From: an uncultured Clostridium sp.
GTDB lineage: Bacteria; Bacillota; Clostridia; Lachnospirales; Lachnospiraceae
Length of the DNA: 39,175 nt
Direction: 5' to 3'
Assembly: GCA_946553025.1 (NCBI GenBank)
Contig: CAMNRM010000050.1
Coordinates: forward strand, 1 to 39,175
The first letter of the stretch is position 1; every line of letters starts with the position of its first letter. This document shows positions 5,134 to 39,175 of the stretch, piece by piece. A program made the translations under genes and the position numbers. The notes below the pieces were generated by a model that saw nothing but the letters and a program-made list of their open reading frames with translations, did no database searches and was not told where the DNA came from.

Positions 5134-6828
5134 ATGAAAAAGCGAGTAGGGATAGGGCATCAGAATTTTGAAAAAATCAGAGAAAATGATTTGTTTTATG
5201 TGGATAAGACTGCGTTTATCCGGGAATGGTGGGAAAATGCAGACGAAGTAACCCTGATTACACGTCCAAGAAGATTTGGAAAGACATTAAATATGAGTAT
5301 GTTGGAGAAGTTTTTTTCGGTTGACTATGCAGGGCGGGCGGATTTGTTTCAGGGGCTTGCTGTCTGGGAAGATGAAAAATACCGAAAACTTCAGGGAACC
5401 TATCCTGTTCTTTTTATTAGCTTTGCTGACGTGAAAGAAACAACCTATGAGCAGGCAAGGAAAATCATTTGCCGTATTATCAAAGAACTCTATCATCAAT
5501 ATTATTTTTTATTAGAAGGCGATTTATTAAGCGAAAGTGAAAGGAAAGATTTTTTGCATATTTCCGTTGATATGGAAGATAATGAAGTTGCTTATTCCCT
5601 AAAGGCTTTGTCAAATTACCTTTGTCGCTATTATGGAAAGAAAGTGATTATTCTGTTGGATGAATATGATACACCTATGCAGGAAGCTTATGTTCATGGT
5701 TATTGGGAGGAATTAGTATCTTTTACACGAAGTCTGTTTAATTCCACATTTAAAACCAATCCGTATCTGGAACGTGCGATTATGACAGGAATTACCAGAG
5801 TGAGTAAGGAATCCATATTTTCCGATTTGAATAATTTAAAAGTTATTACAACGATTTCCGAACAATATGCCGATTGTTTTGGATTTACAGAAAAAGAAGT
5901 ATTTGATGTGCTGGATGCATATGATTTGTCAGAAAGAAAACAGGAAGTAAAAGCCTGGTATGATGGGTTTATTTTTGGAAATAGAAAAGATATTTATAAT
6001 CCATGGTCAATTATTAACTATCTGGATACACAAAGATTGGGAACCTATTGGGTGAATTCCAGTTCAAACAGCCTTATAGGAAAGCTGATTCGGGAAGGAA
6101 GTTCACAAGTAAAGACAGTGGTGGAAAATCTGATTCAGGGAGAGGAATTTCATGTATCATTTGATGAGCAGATTGTATTTAGCCAGTTAGATCAAGATGA
6201 TTCTGCCGTATGGAGTTTGTTATTAGCCAGTGGATATTTAAAGCCAGAATATGCTGAATTTAATGTGGAATCTGGAAAGATGGAGTACAGCCTGAGCCTG
6301 ACAAATCGGGAAGTTTACTTTATGTTTCAGCACATGATTGAGGGATGGTTTGGAAAATGCCGTGAGGTACACAATGCATTTCTACAGGCGCTTTTGTCCC
6401 ATGATTTGGAAGGCATGAATGACTATATGAATGAGATTTCCGAAGAACTATTCAGTAGTTTTGACGCGGGAAAGAAGCCTTCGGATAAGCTGCAGCCTGA
6501 AAAGTTCTATCACGGATTTGTTCTTGGTTTGATGGTGGAACTGCGTGGACGGTATTACATTTCATCAAATAAAGAAAGCGGTTTGGGGCGATATGATATT
6601 ATGATGGAACCTAAGGAAAAAGATGCAGATGCATTCATTATCGAGTTTAAAGTAGTTCATGAAAAAAGGGGGGAAACCCTGGAAAGTGCAGTGCAGGCGG
6701 CATTGAAACAGATCGAGGAAAAGAAGTATGATATCATATTGCGTAATCGGGGAATAGAGGCAGAACGGATAAGAAAGTATGGGTTTGCATTTTTGGGCAA
6801 AGAAGTATTGATTGGTGAAAAGGTTTAA
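5134..6828 (+). CDS. AAA-ATPase-like / PD-(D/E)XK nuclease fusion protein (element copy)
   Basis: The 564-aa product has the AAA-ATPase_like N-terminal domain (PF09820 type) and a C-terminal PD-(D/E)XK nuclease-like domain (PF08011 type). Visible motifs are the variant P-loop RPRRFGKT (residues 44-51), the Walker B ILLDEYDTP near residue 175, and GLGRYDIMMEP followed by FIIEFKV near residue 504, the Asp...Glu-x-Lys pattern of the nuclease fold. GIGHQNFEKIRENDLFYVDKT at the start is the family signature. These proteins are abundant as paralogues in Clostridia and Bacteroidetes and their role is unknown; a mobile-element or defence link is often suspected. The RBS AAAGGATGTGAG lies just upstream. 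A close paralogue sits outside the element at 31690-33378. Confidence 0.9.
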   Translation: MKKRVGIGHQNFEKIRENDLFYVDKTAFIREWWENADEVTLITRPRRFGKTLNMSMLEKFFSVDYAGRADLFQGLAVWEDEKYRKLQGTYPVLFISFADVKETTYEQARKIICRIIKELYHQYYFLLEGDLLSESERKDFLHISVDMEDNEVAYSLKALSNYLCRYYGKKVIILLDEYDTPMQEAYVHGYWEELVSFTRSLFNSTFKTNPYLERAIMTGITRVSKESIFSDLNNLKVITTISEQYADCFGFTEKEVFDVLDAYDLSERKQEVKAWYDGFIFGNRKDIYNPWSIINYLDTQRLGTYWVNSSSNSLIGKLIREGSSQVKTVVENLIQGEEFHVSFDEQIVFSQLDQDDSAVWSLLLASGYLKPEYAEFNVESGKMEYSLSLTNREVYFMFQHMIEGWFGKCREVHNAFLQALLSHDLEGMNDYMNEISEELFSSFDAGKKPSDKLQPEKFYHGFVLGLMVELRGRYYISSNKESGLGRYDIMMEPKEKDADAFIIEFKVVHEKRGETLESAVQAALKQIEEKKYDIILRNRGIEAERIRKYGFAFLGKEVLIGEKV

Positions 6829-31514: not shown

Positions 31515-31591
31515 GAGAGGTCGAAATAGTGGTTGAAGTAATGATTTAGAATATGCGTTGGAATTTTGCGTTGAAATTTGTGAAATACTTA

Positions 31592-31620
31592 TTGTAAAAG
31601 AGGATGAAATTCGTTATACT
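31592..31620 (+). promoter_or_regulatory. Promoter of the second AAA-ATPase/nuclease gene
   Basis: TTGTAA (31592-31597), 17 bp, TATACT (31615-31620). It lies inside a longer open frame that begins at 31558, which argues for the later ATG at 31690. Confidence 0.65.
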
Positions 31621-31689
31621 AGAGTGTGTCTGGACATTGCTATCTGGCAGGTGTGTGTGAAAGCAGAGGGCAGGAGGAGAGGGGGAGGA

Positions 31690-33378
31690 ATGGCAAGAAC
31701 AGTGAGTATCGGATGTCAGGATTTTGAAACGATACGAAACGCAGGATATTTTTATATTGATAAAACATCATTGATTAGAGAGTGGTGGGAGAGCGGGGAC
31801 AGTGTTACCCTGATTGCTCGTCCAAGAAGATTTGGAAAAACGCTTGCGATGAGTATGATGGAACAGTTTTTTTCCGTGAAATTTGCGGGAAGAAGGGATT
31901 TGTTTGAAGGGCTTTCGATTTGGAACGATGAAAAGTTTCGGAAGCTGCAGGGAACCTATCCGGTAATCAGTCTGTCGTTTGCAAATGTAAAAGAAAAGGA
32001 TTATCCGTCGGCAGTACAAAGGCTTTTTCAGATTTTAACGGATTTGTACAATAAACATATTTTTCTTCTGGAAGGAGATTTGCTGACAGAGGAAGAAAAA
32101 CGGTATTTTCGCAGTGTGAATTGCCGTATGGAAGAGGTTACTGCCACGTGGGCGCTGCATAAGATGTCGGATTTTTTGTCCCGCTATTACGGAAAGCGCG
32201 TGATTATTTTGCTGGACGAATACGATACGCCCATGCAGGAGGCTTATGTTCAGGGATACTGGGAAGAACTTACGGCATTGATGAGAAATATGTTTAATGC
32301 TGCTTTGAAAACGAACCCCTGTCTGGAGCGTGCCATAATGACAGGGATAACCAGGGTGAGCAGAGAGTCTATTTTTTCTGATTTGAATCATTTAGAAGTG
32401 GTAACAACGACTTCCGATAAATATGCGGACAGCTTTGGATTTACAGAGAGGGAAGTTTTTGCGGCGCTGGAAGAGTTTGCACTTGAAGGGCGGAAGCAGG
32501 AGGTAAAAACATGGTACGATGGGTTTACTTTTGGCAGATGTACAGAAATCTATAATCCTTGGTCGATTTTAAATTATCTGGATAAGAAAAAAGCGGGCGC
32601 ATATTGGGCAAATTCCAGTTCAAACAGCCTGGCAGGGAAGCTGATCCGGGAGGGAAATAAGGAGATTAAGCAGGAATTTGAAAACCTGTTGAGAGGCAAT
32701 ACTTTCAGGGGTGAGATTGACGAGCAGGTGGTGTATGGGGAACTGAATCAAAAGCCGAATGCTGTATGGAGCCTTTTGCTTGCAAGCGGATATCTTAAAG
32801 TGGTTCAAGTGGAATTTATCGAGGAAACTGGGCGTTGGTATTATACATTGGCATTGACTAATAAAGAAGTGCACATTATGTTTTCCCATATGATTCGCGG
32901 ATGGTTTTATGACGCCGATGGTAATTATAATGAATTTCTCCGGGCATTGCTGAAGGACGATGTAAAGGCAATGAATGTCTATATGAACCGTGTGGCAATG
33001 ATGACGTTTAGCTATTTTGATACGGGAAAGCGACCTTCCGTTACCCTGCCGGAACGTTTCTATCACGGCTTTGTACTGGGGCTGATGGCGGAACTGGAAG
33101 GAAGATACGTGCTGACTTCTAACCGGGAAAGCGGATTTGGTCGTTATGATGTGATGCTGGAACCGCTGAATTTATTTGATGACGCGATGATTATAGAGTT
33201 TAAAGTGCAGGATGAGGAGGAAGAAAAGGAACTGTCAGATACCGTGCAGGCGGCGTTAAAACAGATCGATGAGCAGTGCTATGAGGCGGCATTGATTGGA
33301 AAAGGTATTGGCAGGGAGAGGATAAGAAAGTATGGTTTTGCGTTTTGTGGGAAGAGGGTGAAAATTGGGAAGGGGTGA
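31690..33378 (+). CDS. AAA-ATPase-like / PD-(D/E)XK nuclease fusion protein (chromosomal copy)
   Basis: ATG 31690 follows GGGGGAGG and yields a 562-aa product opening MARTVSIGCQDFETIRNAGY, co-linear with the element copy at 5134-6828. The same motifs are present: RPRRFGKT, IILLDEYDTPMQEAYV, GITRVSRESIFSDLN, WYDGFTFG, YNPWSI, and the nuclease pair GFGRYDVMLEP and MIIEFKV. The two proteins are clearly paralogous along the whole length; by eye well over half of positions agree. Function unknown. It sits alone between pheT and the CRISPR locus, with a promoter of the same design as that before the Fic gene. Confidence 0.9.
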   Translation: MARTVSIGCQDFETIRNAGYFYIDKTSLIREWWESGDSVTLIARPRRFGKTLAMSMMEQFFSVKFAGRRDLFEGLSIWNDEKFRKLQGTYPVISLSFANVKEKDYPSAVQRLFQILTDLYNKHIFLLEGDLLTEEEKRYFRSVNCRMEEVTATWALHKMSDFLSRYYGKRVIILLDEYDTPMQEAYVQGYWEELTALMRNMFNAALKTNPCLERAIMTGITRVSRESIFSDLNHLEVVTTTSDKYADSFGFTEREVFAALEEFALEGRKQEVKTWYDGFTFGRCTEIYNPWSILNYLDKKKAGAYWANSSSNSLAGKLIREGNKEIKQEFENLLRGNTFRGEIDEQVVYGELNQKPNAVWSLLLASGYLKVVQVEFIEETGRWYYTLALTNKEVHIMFSHMIRGWFYDADGNYNEFLRALLKDDVKAMNVYMNRVAMMTFSYFDTGKRPSVTLPERFYHGFVLGLMAELEGRYVLTSNRESGFGRYDVMLEPLNLFDDAMIIEFKVQDEEEEKELSDTVQAALKQIDEQCYEAALIGKGIGRERIRKYGFAFCGKRVKIGKG

Positions 33379-33395
33379 GATAACCTAAGATATTG

Positions 33396-33423
33396 TTGAA
33401 TATTGATAGTTTTGGGCTATATT
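33396..33423 (+). promoter_or_regulatory. Putative promoter of the crRNA-like RNA
   Basis: TTGAAT (33396-33401), 16 bp, TATATT (33418-33423). Transcription would start near 33430, right at the first degenerate repeat (33433), as expected for a free-standing mini-array without a leader. Confidence 0.45.
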
Positions 33424-33432
33424 TGGGTATTA

Positions 33433-33524
33433 GATAAGCTTCAACATGAGATGTATTTGAATATAAATTTAGTTTTAAGATTTAGTTCTTATCAAATAAA
33501 CCGTAACATTAGATGTAATAAACA
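33433..33524 (+). CRISPR. Degenerate repeat-spacer-repeat (CreR/CreA-like crRNA-like RNA) before cas6
   Basis: Two degenerate 30-bp repeats, 33433-33462 and 33495-33524, flank a 32-nt spacer (33463-33494). Their cores are AACATGAGATGTATT and AACATTAGATGTAAT; they agree at 19 of 30 positions. The first closely resembles the repeat I remember for clostridial I-B arrays (core AACATGAGATGTATTTAAAT), differing mainly in its 5' part. An 8-nt handle ATTTGAAT (33455-33462) would precede the spacer after Cas6 cleavage. Spacer nt 1-21 match 33561-33581 at 18 of 21, with mismatches only at 6, 12 and 18. The target lies next to the cas6 promoter, so the RNA probably guides Cascade to repress cas expression. 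The genuine array is not in the window. Confidence 0.75.
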
Positions 33525-33560
33525 GCCAGAAAGTTTTAATAGGAGGGATAAATATAATCA

Positions 33561-33592
33561 ATAAAATTAGTATTAAGTTTTTCTTGATATAT
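33561..33592 (+). promoter_or_regulatory. Protospacer-like target of the crRNA-like RNA, overlapping the cas -35 box
   Basis: Begins ATAAAATTAGTATTAAGTTT and is preceded by TCA (33558-33560), a sequence that works as PAM in some clostridial I-B systems. Identity with the spacer is 18 of 21 at the PAM side and 5 of 11 beyond. The 32-bp footprint includes the -35 hexamer (33584-33589). Confidence 0.7.
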
Positions 33593-33612
33593 AGCATCAA
33601 ATATGGTATAGT
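33584..33612 (+). promoter_or_regulatory. Promoter of the cas operon
   Basis: TTGATA (33584-33589), 17 bp, TATAGT (33607-33612), 52 bp before the cas6 ATG. It sits immediately behind, and partly within, the crRNA-like target. Confidence 0.75.
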
Positions 33613-33664
33613 GCTAATAGTTAAATGACATTAGAAAAGATTTAATGATGTGAGGAGGGAAGAA

Positions 33665-34357
33665 ATGGAGGTAGCTCAAATTAGACTCAAGCTTTATACA
33701 TTAAAAGATATTCCTGTTGAACAAGTGCAGGAAAAACTGACCTTATTTATTGATACAGGATTTGCTGTCAATGAAGAACTGATTCAAATGCATGAGGAAA
33801 ATTGTTTTAAACCGTATTGCTTTGATTTTTTGTATAAGATCGAGCCGGACAAGATCTATAAAAAAGATCGTATCTATACGCTTACGATAAGAACGATAGA
33901 TCGAAAATTAGCAAAACATTTTTCAGAGGTTTGTGTAAATCATTATACGCAAGAGTTCAAGGGGCTTGTAGCGGAGGTGCGTATACTTCCTCATAAAAGG
34001 ATCGAGAGTTTATACTCATTGCCCCCAGTTATTTTGAAAGATCAAAAAGGATATTGGAGAAAGCACATGAGCCTGGAAGGGTTTGAAAAGAGATTGAAAG
34101 TAAATTTGATTAAAAAATGGAATTATTTTACTGGTGAAAAGATAGATGAAGATTTTCAGCTTTATACCCTTCTTGAGTTTTTAAATGATAAGCCGATTAG
34201 TGTAAATTATAAAAAGATTAAGTTGCTGGGCGATAAGATTCGGCTTCAAATTGCTGATAACGAGGTGGCACAAAAGCTATCGTACATGGCCTTGGGAACA
34301 GGGTTGTTGGAAAATAATTCCAGAGGATCAGGCTTTGTGAATTATCGATGGCTGTAG
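33665..34357 (+). CDS. cas6: CRISPR-associated endoribonuclease Cas6 (type I-B)
   Basis: ATG 33665 is chosen because AGGAGG (33653-33658) precedes it; a GTG at 33650 would lie upstream of that site. The 230-aa product has a ferredoxin-like N-terminal half (VAQIRLKLYTLKD), a His (His43, MHEENCFKPYCFDF) in the place usual for the catalytic residue of Cas6, and a C-terminal glycine-rich loop, GLLENNSRGSGFVNYRW, diagnostic for the family. Cas6 cuts pre-crRNA within the repeats, leaving the 8-nt 5' handle. It should also process the mini-array just upstream if that is transcribed. First gene of cas6-cas8b-cas7-cas5. Confidence 0.9.
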   Translation: MEVAQIRLKLYTLKDIPVEQVQEKLTLFIDTGFAVNEELIQMHEENCFKPYCFDFLYKIEPDKIYKKDRIYTLTIRTIDRKLAKHFSEVCVNHYTQEFKGLVAEVRILPHKRIESLYSLPPVILKDQKGYWRKHMSLEGFEKRLKVNLIKKWNYFTGEKIDEDFQLYTLLEFLNDKPISVNYKKIKLLGDKIRLQIADNEVAQKLSYMALGTGLLENNSRGSGFVNYRWL

Positions 34358-34366
34358 GAGGAAATT

Positions 34367-37055
<2,689 letters not shown>

Positions 37056-37058
37056 TTT

Positions 37059-37859
37059 ATGGATATTTTAAGATTTACATTGAGCGGGAAACAGGCATTT
37101 TTTAAGAAGCCGGAAGTAAATTCCTATTATTATTTTACTTATGGAAATATTCATAAGGTTGCACTTTTGGGGATTTTTGGGGCGATTCTGGGTTATGGCG
37201 GTTATACGCAGATGCAGGGTTTTGTAAGGGATAAGAAACAAAGCCGTTTATCGCCGGGTTTTCCAGAATTTTATGAAAAGTTGCAGAAATTGAAGATTTC
37301 TATTTTGCCTGCTTCAGATGCTAAAAATGGGGTAATTCCTAAAAAAATACAGACGTTTAATAACTCGGTGGGCTATGCTTCCGGGGAACAGGGAGGAAAC
37401 CTGATTGTAAAGGAGCAATGGTTAGAATATCCAAAATGGGAGATCTGCCTTCTTATTGATTCTGACGAAGCGGAGAAGGTAAAGGAATCTGTAGTCCAGA
37501 AGAAATGCGTATACTATCCTTATTTAGGCAAGAATGATCACCTGGCAGATATTTATGATGTCCGAACATTAGAGGCCAAAATTACGGCATCAGAGAGAGG
37601 CAGACTGCATTGCCTGGCATTAAAAGAAGAAATAGCAATTGCAGAACCGGATTTCGATGATTTTGATGACGAAGATAATGCAGATGGGGAAAATGCAGAT
37701 GGATGCGGAAGCTTCCGATATGAGGAAGCCCTTCCCTATGGTATGGATGAATGGACGAATCATTATCTTATGAAAACCTTTGTCTTTACCGATGCATTGC
37801 TTGAAACGGATGCCGATGTGTTTTTGCTGGAAGATGGAAAAAGGATAATGTTTTATTAA
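37059..37859 (+). CDS. cas5: Type I-B Cascade subunit Cas5
   Basis: The 266-aa product begins MDILRFTLSGKQAFFKKPEV, followed by SYYYFTYGNIHKVALLGIFG and AILGYGGY, the N-terminal RAMP strand and glycine-rich stretch of Cas5b proteins, which bind the crRNA 5' handle. It starts 3 bp after the cas7 stop. A C-terminal acidic stretch (EPDFDDFDDEDNADGENADG) is unusual. Its TAA is followed by a 181-bp gap before cas3 with its own promoter and hairpin. Confidence 0.88.
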   Translation: MDILRFTLSGKQAFFKKPEVNSYYYFTYGNIHKVALLGIFGAILGYGGYTQMQGFVRDKKQSRLSPGFPEFYEKLQKLKISILPASDAKNGVIPKKIQTFNNSVGYASGEQGGNLIVKEQWLEYPKWEICLLIDSDEAEKVKESVVQKKCVYYPYLGKNDHLADIYDVRTLEAKITASERGRLHCLALKEEIAIAEPDFDDFDDEDNADGENADGCGSFRYEEALPYGMDEWTNHYLMKTFVFTDALLETDADVFLLEDGKRIMFY

Positions 37860-38040: not shown

Positions 38041-39141
38041 ATGAAAGCAGAAGAGATAAAAGGATTAATTAATCATCTGGAACGATATGAAGCACATAGT
38101 AAAAGTGACGAGAATGGTATAATCACAGAAAGGGAAACTTTGCTGGAACATACCGAGCGGACGGTATGGTATTTTGAACAGTTAGGGGAAGAGAAAGATA
38201 TTTCAGCGATGCTGTCCCGTTTTTATCTGCAGATGTATGGGGGCTTATCGGAGAAAGCCGTGTATTTTTGGAGGGAAATGATAACAGGGATTCCGATTTT
38301 TCATGATTTGGGGAAGATTAATCCTGATTTTCAGCGCCGTAAATTACATAATGATCGAGTTGAAGATGAAGATGTATTTCGTTTTATTGCAGGAAGGCAT
38401 TCTATTCTTTCTGCAGTGTTTTATCTGGATTATTTTCTGGGGATGTTAAAAAATACAGAGATGGATAAGGCAGAAAAAAAGATATTAAGAAGATACATAC
38501 TTTATCATGCATATATTATTGAACGGCATCACAGTGATTTGAATGATTTTAGCTGTTTTATCCGAACATTGGAAGAGGAAGCAGGAAAAGATATTATAGA
38601 ATTGGGGAAAAATGGAAAGTGCAGGGCGTGGAAAAATAATTTTTTTCTGGATGAAAAAAAGATAAAAAGACTGATACAGGAATTTTACCGCCAGGAAGAA
38701 TTTTCGGAGGAATACGGGATGGGAATTTATACCTATGTAAAGCTGATGTATTCCCTTCTGGTGGCATCTGATTATTATGCAACAGCAGAATTTAGGTCGG
38801 GAATGAAGCGGAGCCAGTTCGGAAGTATAGGAGAAGTGCAGAGATGGCTTCAGGTGTATGAACAGACGAAAATGATGAAAGAGGTACGTATTTATCAGAA
38901 AACACAGTATCCTCAAACGATGGAAAAATTGCAGGCGGAAACAGAAATTAATCAGCTGCGCAGAGAAATGTTATGTGATGCCGAGTATGTGTTGCGCCAG
39001 CATCCAGAAGAAAATTTATTTTATCTGGAAGCACCTACCGGGAGCGGGAAGAGCAATACAGCATTGAATTTAAGTTTTCAGTTGATACAGATGCATCCGA
39101 AATTAAGAAAAATCTATTATACTATAAAAGAGCAAATTTAA
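38041..39141 (+). pseudogene. cas3: Truncated Cas3 (HD nuclease plus start of helicase)
   Basis: The 366-aa product has an N-terminal HD nuclease domain: His in LLEHTERTVWYF, the HD pair in GIPIFHDLGKINPDFQRRKL, and ERHHSDLNDF. The SF2 helicase Walker A EAPTGSGKSNTALNLSF follows near residue 330. Full Cas3 enzymes run 700-900 aa with five more helicase motifs. Here the match stops after HPKLRKIYYT, then IKEQI and a TAA at 39139-39141. Neither other frame continues the helicase in the last 60 bases. An insertion, rearrangement or assembly break beyond about 39110 is the simplest reading. Without the helicase the locus would be impaired for DNA degradation, although Cascade could still bind. 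Confidence 0.8.
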
Positions 39142-39175
39142 AATTTATTGTCAAAATGCACAAAAAATAAGACAT

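Follow-up and report, generated by a model that had tools for sequence, protein, structure and literature searches.

The window, i.e. the whole stretch of 39,175 nucleotides from an uncultured Clostridium sp. (Lachnospiraceae) that was analysed here, carries in front of its cas6 gene a mini-CRISPR whose single spacer resembles the DNA that follows it. This raises the question whether the locus encodes a guide that turns the system's own Cascade against its own cas genes. Cas-regulating RNAs (CreRs), which stem from mini-CRISPRs, are known to repress the cas genes of types I-B, I-E and V-A by pairing in part with their promoters (Liu et al. 2023, Cell Host Microbe, as cited in the accessible parts of PMC13131331, PMC12948488 and PMC12737573). 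As set out below, we consider it very likely that the locus encodes such a CreR, which would load Cascade and repress the cas operon.

The mini-CRISPR and its target in front of cas6

The features of the locus and of the adjoining operon are as follows, coordinates being those of the window unless contig C93 of the same assembly is named.

33396..33423, forward strand: candidate promoter of the mini-CRISPR RNA, TTGAAT-16-TATATT, 9/12 consensus
33433..33462, forward strand: degenerate repeat 1, 24/30 identical to the C93 repeat, last 20 identical
33463..33494, forward strand: guide (spacer) of 32 nt, flanked by both degenerate repeats
33495..33524, forward strand: degenerate repeat 2 with damaged 3' handle, 20/30 identical to the C93 repeat
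33558..33560, forward strand: PAM TCA, the three bases directly before the target
33561..33592, forward strand: target of the guide, 33561-33581 matching except at positions 6, 12 and 18
33584..33612, forward strand: predicted cas6 operon promoter, TTGATA-17-TATAGT, its -35 box inside the target footprint
33665..34357, forward strand: cas6 (TIGR01877 6.1e-16; PADLOC Cas6b 7.4e-96)
34367..36121, forward strand: cas8b, large subunit (PADLOC Cas8b (CAS-I-B) 2.5e-177)
36114..37055, forward strand: cas7 (PF05107 1.7e-38; PADLOC Cas7b 1.8e-40)
37059..37859, forward strand: cas5b (TIGR02592 6.8e-47)
38041..39141, forward strand: cas3, 5' part (PADLOC Cas3b 3.5e-88)
C93: Cas3 helicase part (TIGR01587 4.9e-27, under its cut-off)
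C93: Cas4 (TIGR00372 1.5e-17, just under its cut-off)
C93: type I-B Cas1 (TIGR03641 2.2e-126)
C93: Cas2 (TIGR01573 1.6e-10)

By its gene content, with Cas6, Cas8b, Cas7, Cas5b, Cas3, adaptation genes and an array, the system is a type I-B CRISPR-Cas system; the cas8b product has no NCBIfam or Pfam match. The cas6 gene begins with an ATG at 33665, and an in-frame GTG lies at 33650. At the contig edge the cas3 frame enters an apparent insertion-element end and the rest of cas3 opens contig C93, which continues with cas4, cas1b, cas2 and an array, a second array being located on contig C75. We infer that the window contig (C50) and C93 adjoin, and an insertion element seems to interrupt cas3: a terminal repeat (with GAGCAAATTTAAAA) is present in inverted copies at 39125-39175 of the window and at 1-75 of C93. 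Of the six sites of the end motif in the genome, five lie no more than about 50 bases from a contig edge. Given the break in cas3, this strain may lack active interference; Cascade and the repression by it could still work.

Most copies of the array repeat read GATTAATGGTAACATGAGATGTATTTGAAT on C93 and GATTAATAGTAACATGAGATGTATTTGAAC on C75. Of 12 array spacers measured in both arrays 11 are 34-37 nt long and one has 60 nt, compared to 32 nt for the guide of the mini-array. The 60-nt gap lies on C93 (3873-3932), where the other four gaps measure 34-37 nt, and its end closely resembles the sequence that precedes the first repeat, which looks like a duplication of the array start and the leader end.

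The mini-CRISPR is placed between an AAA-ATPase_like/PDDEXK_9 gene (end at 33378) and cas6. Comparison with the genome's own array repeats bears out the sequence-only reading of a 32-nt spacer between two degenerate I-B repeats: repeat 1 has lost most of its 5' part and retained the handle ATTTGAAT, its last 8 bases and the predicted 5' handle of the RNA, and repeat 2 has retained its middle part. As only 140 bases separate repeat 2 from the cas6 ATG, a mini-CRISPR with degenerate repeats thus adjoins the cas operon. The predicted start of its RNA near 33430 falls at the edge of repeat 1; the promoter call is weak evidence, since the region holds three promoter-like matches against a mean of 2.0 in shuffled sequence. 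No terminator was found between mini-array and cas6 and, together with the weak guide promoter, this makes read-through into cas6 possible. Folding of the mini-array RNA predicted no unusual structure (z 0.13) and a search of 33300-33760 against Rfam gave no match at E up to 1. The gene directly upstream (31558-33378) has a relative at 5134-6828 of the window, both with the AAA-ATPase_like and PDDEXK_9 domains (PF09820, PF08011).

Aligned to 33561 onward, the spacer matches at 18 of its first 21 nt with mismatches at 6, 12 and 18 and the next one from 22 on. The sequence-only reading had this match correct to the base, and the sequence also confirms its placement of the target behind TCA and of the 32-nt guide footprint over the -35 box of the predicted cas6 promoter, from which transcription would start about 46 nt before the cas6 ATG. 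The guide therefore has limited complementarity to the predicted cas promoter, starting with the seed behind a putative PAM. None of 3000 dinucleotide shuffles of 33525-33664 matched at all 15 pairing positions (best 14, in two of them), and one of 3000 gave 18/21 with every position counted. The next best site for the guide in the whole window matches at 15/21, and TCA followed by the 10-base seed (position 6 free) occurs at two sites in the 4.87-Mb assembly, the target upstream of cas6 and the 3' end of a cbiB-like gene. A second similarity within the genome is located on contig C7 (query 150-186).

Guides and targets in related operons

In order to compare the arrangement between genomes we collected Cas8b homologues from overlapping samples, the own genome being counted in each: 14/397 genomes of the family, 11/392 of the order, 2/11 of the genus, 22/341 of the class and 7/398 of the phylum. 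Two further searches in the family (1/2 and 3/22 genomes) gave none new, and four loci in named contigs as well as five plasmids were added. L025, apparently the same contig as L069, and four remote or partial Cas8b matches (G367, G785, G873 and a second place in G886) were left out, and the region upstream of cas6 (up to 700 nt) was compared in the resulting 55 loci with related Cas8b, the window included. Scans for handle and PAM kept positions 6 and 12, and in one scan also 18, outside the score, and pairs were curated from the top matches, a repeat-like stretch before the spacer being required.

In 27 of the 55 loci a repeat-preceded spacer matches the locus's own cas6 upstream region behind TCA. 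With handle and TCA required, 14 of the first 44 loci reach 15/15 pairing positions with themselves, compared to 0 of 1892 cross pairings between genomes; at least 13/15 behind TCA is reached by 22 of 55 loci versus 0.50 expected and a perfect 10-base seed behind TCA by 25 versus 0.50 (2970 cross pairings each). It is mainly this cross-genome comparison that excludes chance. Among the 27 pairs the seed fits its own target at 10/10 positions in 25 and at 9/10 in two (L055 and L112, one mismatch each), whereas the fit to the targets of other genomes is at most 8/10 in the 702 off-diagonal pairings, save four entries of two sister pairs. The spacers share on average 6.7 identities over nt 1-17, and more than 12 only in two sister pairs. 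As judged from these sequences, the guides differ between genomes and are mostly unrelated, each fitting its own target. Taxonomy labels, named contigs aside, place the pairs in 13 families, and three further pairs come from named contigs.

Not all pairs are equally strong. For L027, L106, L107, L126 and L130, which match at 10-12 of the 15 pairing positions, the case depends on a perfect 10-base seed. If any PAM is allowed and all positions are weighted equally, the curated target comes out first in 23 of the 27 pairs, second in L126 and L130 and seventh in L106 and L107, which show a one-base shift after nt 12.

No self-matching pair was found within up to 700 nt upstream of cas6 in 28 of the 55 loci, including all five plasmid homologues and G003 (Cas8b 39% identical), the only other one of 11 genomes of the genus with a related cas8b. 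Three pairless loci (L064, L108 and L129) had just 471, 239 and 134 nt upstream of cas6, and in L059, L061 and L063 a possible mini-repeat or partial match was seen by eye that fell short of the criterion for a pair. A long inverted repeat, perhaps another form of control, is located in the cas6 leader (-91 to -49) of L051, one of the loci in which the comparison gave no self-matching mini-CRISPR.

The layout of the 27 pairs varies. In 12 of them mini-array and target share the cas6 strand, the mini-array being the upstream one; in three (L057, L060 and L095) it lies between target and cas6, and in 12 it is on the opposite strand. In a crude promoter scan 18 pairs have a target that covers the top-scoring predicted promoter or its start, and nine show no overlap. 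By eye, three or four degenerate repeats were seen before cas6 in L024 (1760-1960) and L026 (4950-5170); in relatives of this type one of several spacers matches the promoter, and L026 has a long hairpin after the last repeat.

TCA is the trinucleotide with the largest excess of self-matches in the 55 loci, both for at least 13/15 positions and for the perfect seed, and among the best 12 trinucleotides listed AAT (13 vs 3.1 loci), GAT (7 vs 1.7) and GGT (4 vs 0.24) are also above expectation. One spacer of the C93 array matches eight viral contigs, several of them alike at the matched site, all behind TCN (TCA three, TCG three, TCC two); the other five of six array spacers tried gave no viral match. 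As the viral search patterns left positions 6, 12 and 18 free, mismatches there in the eight contigs are no evidence for the pairing rule. TCA also forms part of a tested PAM of the C. pasteurianum I-B system in the sections available of PMC4860712, and the earlier view of TCA as a plausible I-B PAM gains support from both the viral matches and the clostridial I-B PAMs described there.

The every-sixth-base pattern

Cas7 flips out every sixth base in Cascade. For the mismatch counts over the 27 pairs the TCA target was picked with equal weights over nt 1-18. Mismatches are absent at nt 1-5, 7, 8, 10 and 11 and number 2 at position 9, 19 at position 6 and 16 at position 12; positions 13 to 17 have 3, 3, 5, 8 and 9, position 18 has 20, and nt 19-24 have 13 to 23 per position. 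As unrelated bases of the same composition would mismatch in 67% of cases, or 18 of 27, positions 6, 12 and 18 behave as if free of constraint. Of the 37 mismatches within nt 1-12, 35 fall on 6 or 12, compared to a mean of 6.2 and a maximum of 16 in about 20,000 permutations, and the pattern is unchanged when one member of each sister pair is removed (25 pairs). The drift can be seen between close relatives: L127 and L128 have identical spacers with A at position 12, their targets carrying T and G there, both unlike the spacer, and in L106 and L107 target position 6 is T and C, respectively, with a shared and intact seed. By these alignments the every-sixth-base pattern is a typical trait of the group, not confined to the window genome, and constraint appears to be near-absolute on nt 1-11 bar the sixth and to fade until about nt 17, the flipped bases apparently drifting freely.

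Guides carry T (U) in 55 of 81 cases at 6, 12 and 18, compared to 181 of 405 for the remaining positions within nt 1-17 (post hoc Fisher test, p 1.5e-4, both members of sister pairs counted), hinting at a previously unrecognised base preference of Cas7 at flipped positions. In the literature examined, which was covered in part and not queried by name, we met no description of natural drift at 6, 12 and 18 in CreRs.

Regulator, remnant or antitoxin

The sequence-only reading had taken the locus for a CreR-like autoregulator and had asked whether spacer and promoter co-vary across strains while positions 6, 12 and 18 drift. This is the case in 27 of 55 loci and supports its view. The window also fits a CreR in each feature that sequence could test, from repeats, guide, PAM, target and predicted promoter to spacer-target co-variation, conserved seed and free sixth positions, and we infer transcription, processing, binding, repression and a response to free Cascade. 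In the model that we propose, an RNA starting near 33430 would be cut by Cas6 in both degenerate repeats, giving a crRNA-like guide with its 5' handle, and this guide would load Cascade (Cas8b-Cas7-Cas5). The complex would recognise TCA at 33558-33560 and pair with 33561-33581 except for the bases flipped out by Cas7; in this way it would mask the -35 box and keep cas6-cas8b-cas7-cas5 from being transcribed. Since pairing thins after about 21 nt, it should be too little for Cas3 cutting. Occupation of Cascade by true crRNAs, or its inactivation by an anti-CRISPR, would relieve this repression and allow more Cas protein to be made.

The same similarity might be left by an ordinary spacer taken up accidentally from the cas promoter, now part of a decaying array and harmless by its incomplete match without any regulatory role. 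Degenerate repeats and a cas3 that seems interrupted would suit such a remnant, but it should have started perfect and decayed evenly, whereas nt 1-5, 7, 8, 10 and 11 are free of mismatches in all 27 pairs and 6, 12 and 18 are near the unconstrained level. Moreover, in every pair the target is situated in front of the same operon, bearing in mind that the search in relatives was limited to this region. We therefore regard this origin as improbable. Similarity arising by chance in A+T-rich DNA, or by tandem duplication, has the composition of the 55 upstream regions (70% A+T) in its favour; against it, no shuffle in 3000 reached the pairing-position score, the cross-genome controls show no excess of matches, and the match begins behind a PAM and right after the repeat, at spacer position 1, as had already been argued against a tandem duplication. 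This makes it hardly conceivable.

Another possibility is that the guide is a CreTA-like antitoxin, its target promoter driving a small toxic RNA instead of the cas operon. CreA resembles the locus in its type of degenerate repeats and in its seed rule (PMC9458426, PMC8501985, both in part). In the text available of PMC9458426, the first CreA repeat keeps the Cas5-binding bases and the second largely loses them, comparable to the two degenerate repeats of the window with the handle kept in the first and damaged in the second. For haloarchaeal CreA the excerpts of PMC8501985 report that changing nt 6 or 12 is harmless and changing any other of the first 12 harmful, so that CreA and the window share a seed of 1-5 and 7-11 with indifferent positions 6 and 12. 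In contrast to CreA, the target in the window is the cas operon's own predicted promoter and no toxin gene is apparent: as transcription is predicted to begin about 46 nt ahead of the cas6 ATG, there is room for a short leader only, cas6 is the next gene and, judged from the layout, the promoter does not seem to drive a toxin RNA. A CreTA-like role is thus very improbable here. The scaRNA guiding Cas9 in Francisella resembles the locus in being a degenerate-repeat RNA that uses an effector as repressor through limited complementarity, and differs in effector and target (PMC9458426, as far as described there).

The CreR reading shares with described CreRs the crRNA-like RNA from a mini-CRISPR, the partial complementarity to a cas promoter and the type I-B system (PMC13131331, PMC12948488, PMC12737573, each in part), for the window as predicted from its DNA, and relatives of the locus may already be listed among the CreRs of Liu et al. 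2023. Thus a self-regulating CRISPR guide is a known idea, and what the comparison indicates in addition is that many related bacteria share the arrangement with different guides fitting their own promoters. It is a tentative and rather doubtful generalisation that, across Bacillota, a self-directed and repeatedly reprogrammed guide is a common part of the Cas8b-type I-B operon, in which guide and site change together, the layout of the mini-array varies, only the pairing positions are conserved and the flipped positions favour U.

In summary, natural co-variation supports an RNA-guided feedback loop in a CRISPR operon and comes close to the best evidence obtainable from sequence alone. By comparing self-matching pairs the pairing rule of Cascade becomes readable from evolution, and the same rule (repeat handle, TCA, nt 1-5, 7-11 and 13-17) finds such regulators in unannotated genomes. 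It also draws attention to cas operons that may be expressed more strongly once Cascade is taken up by anti-CRISPRs or crowding crRNAs.
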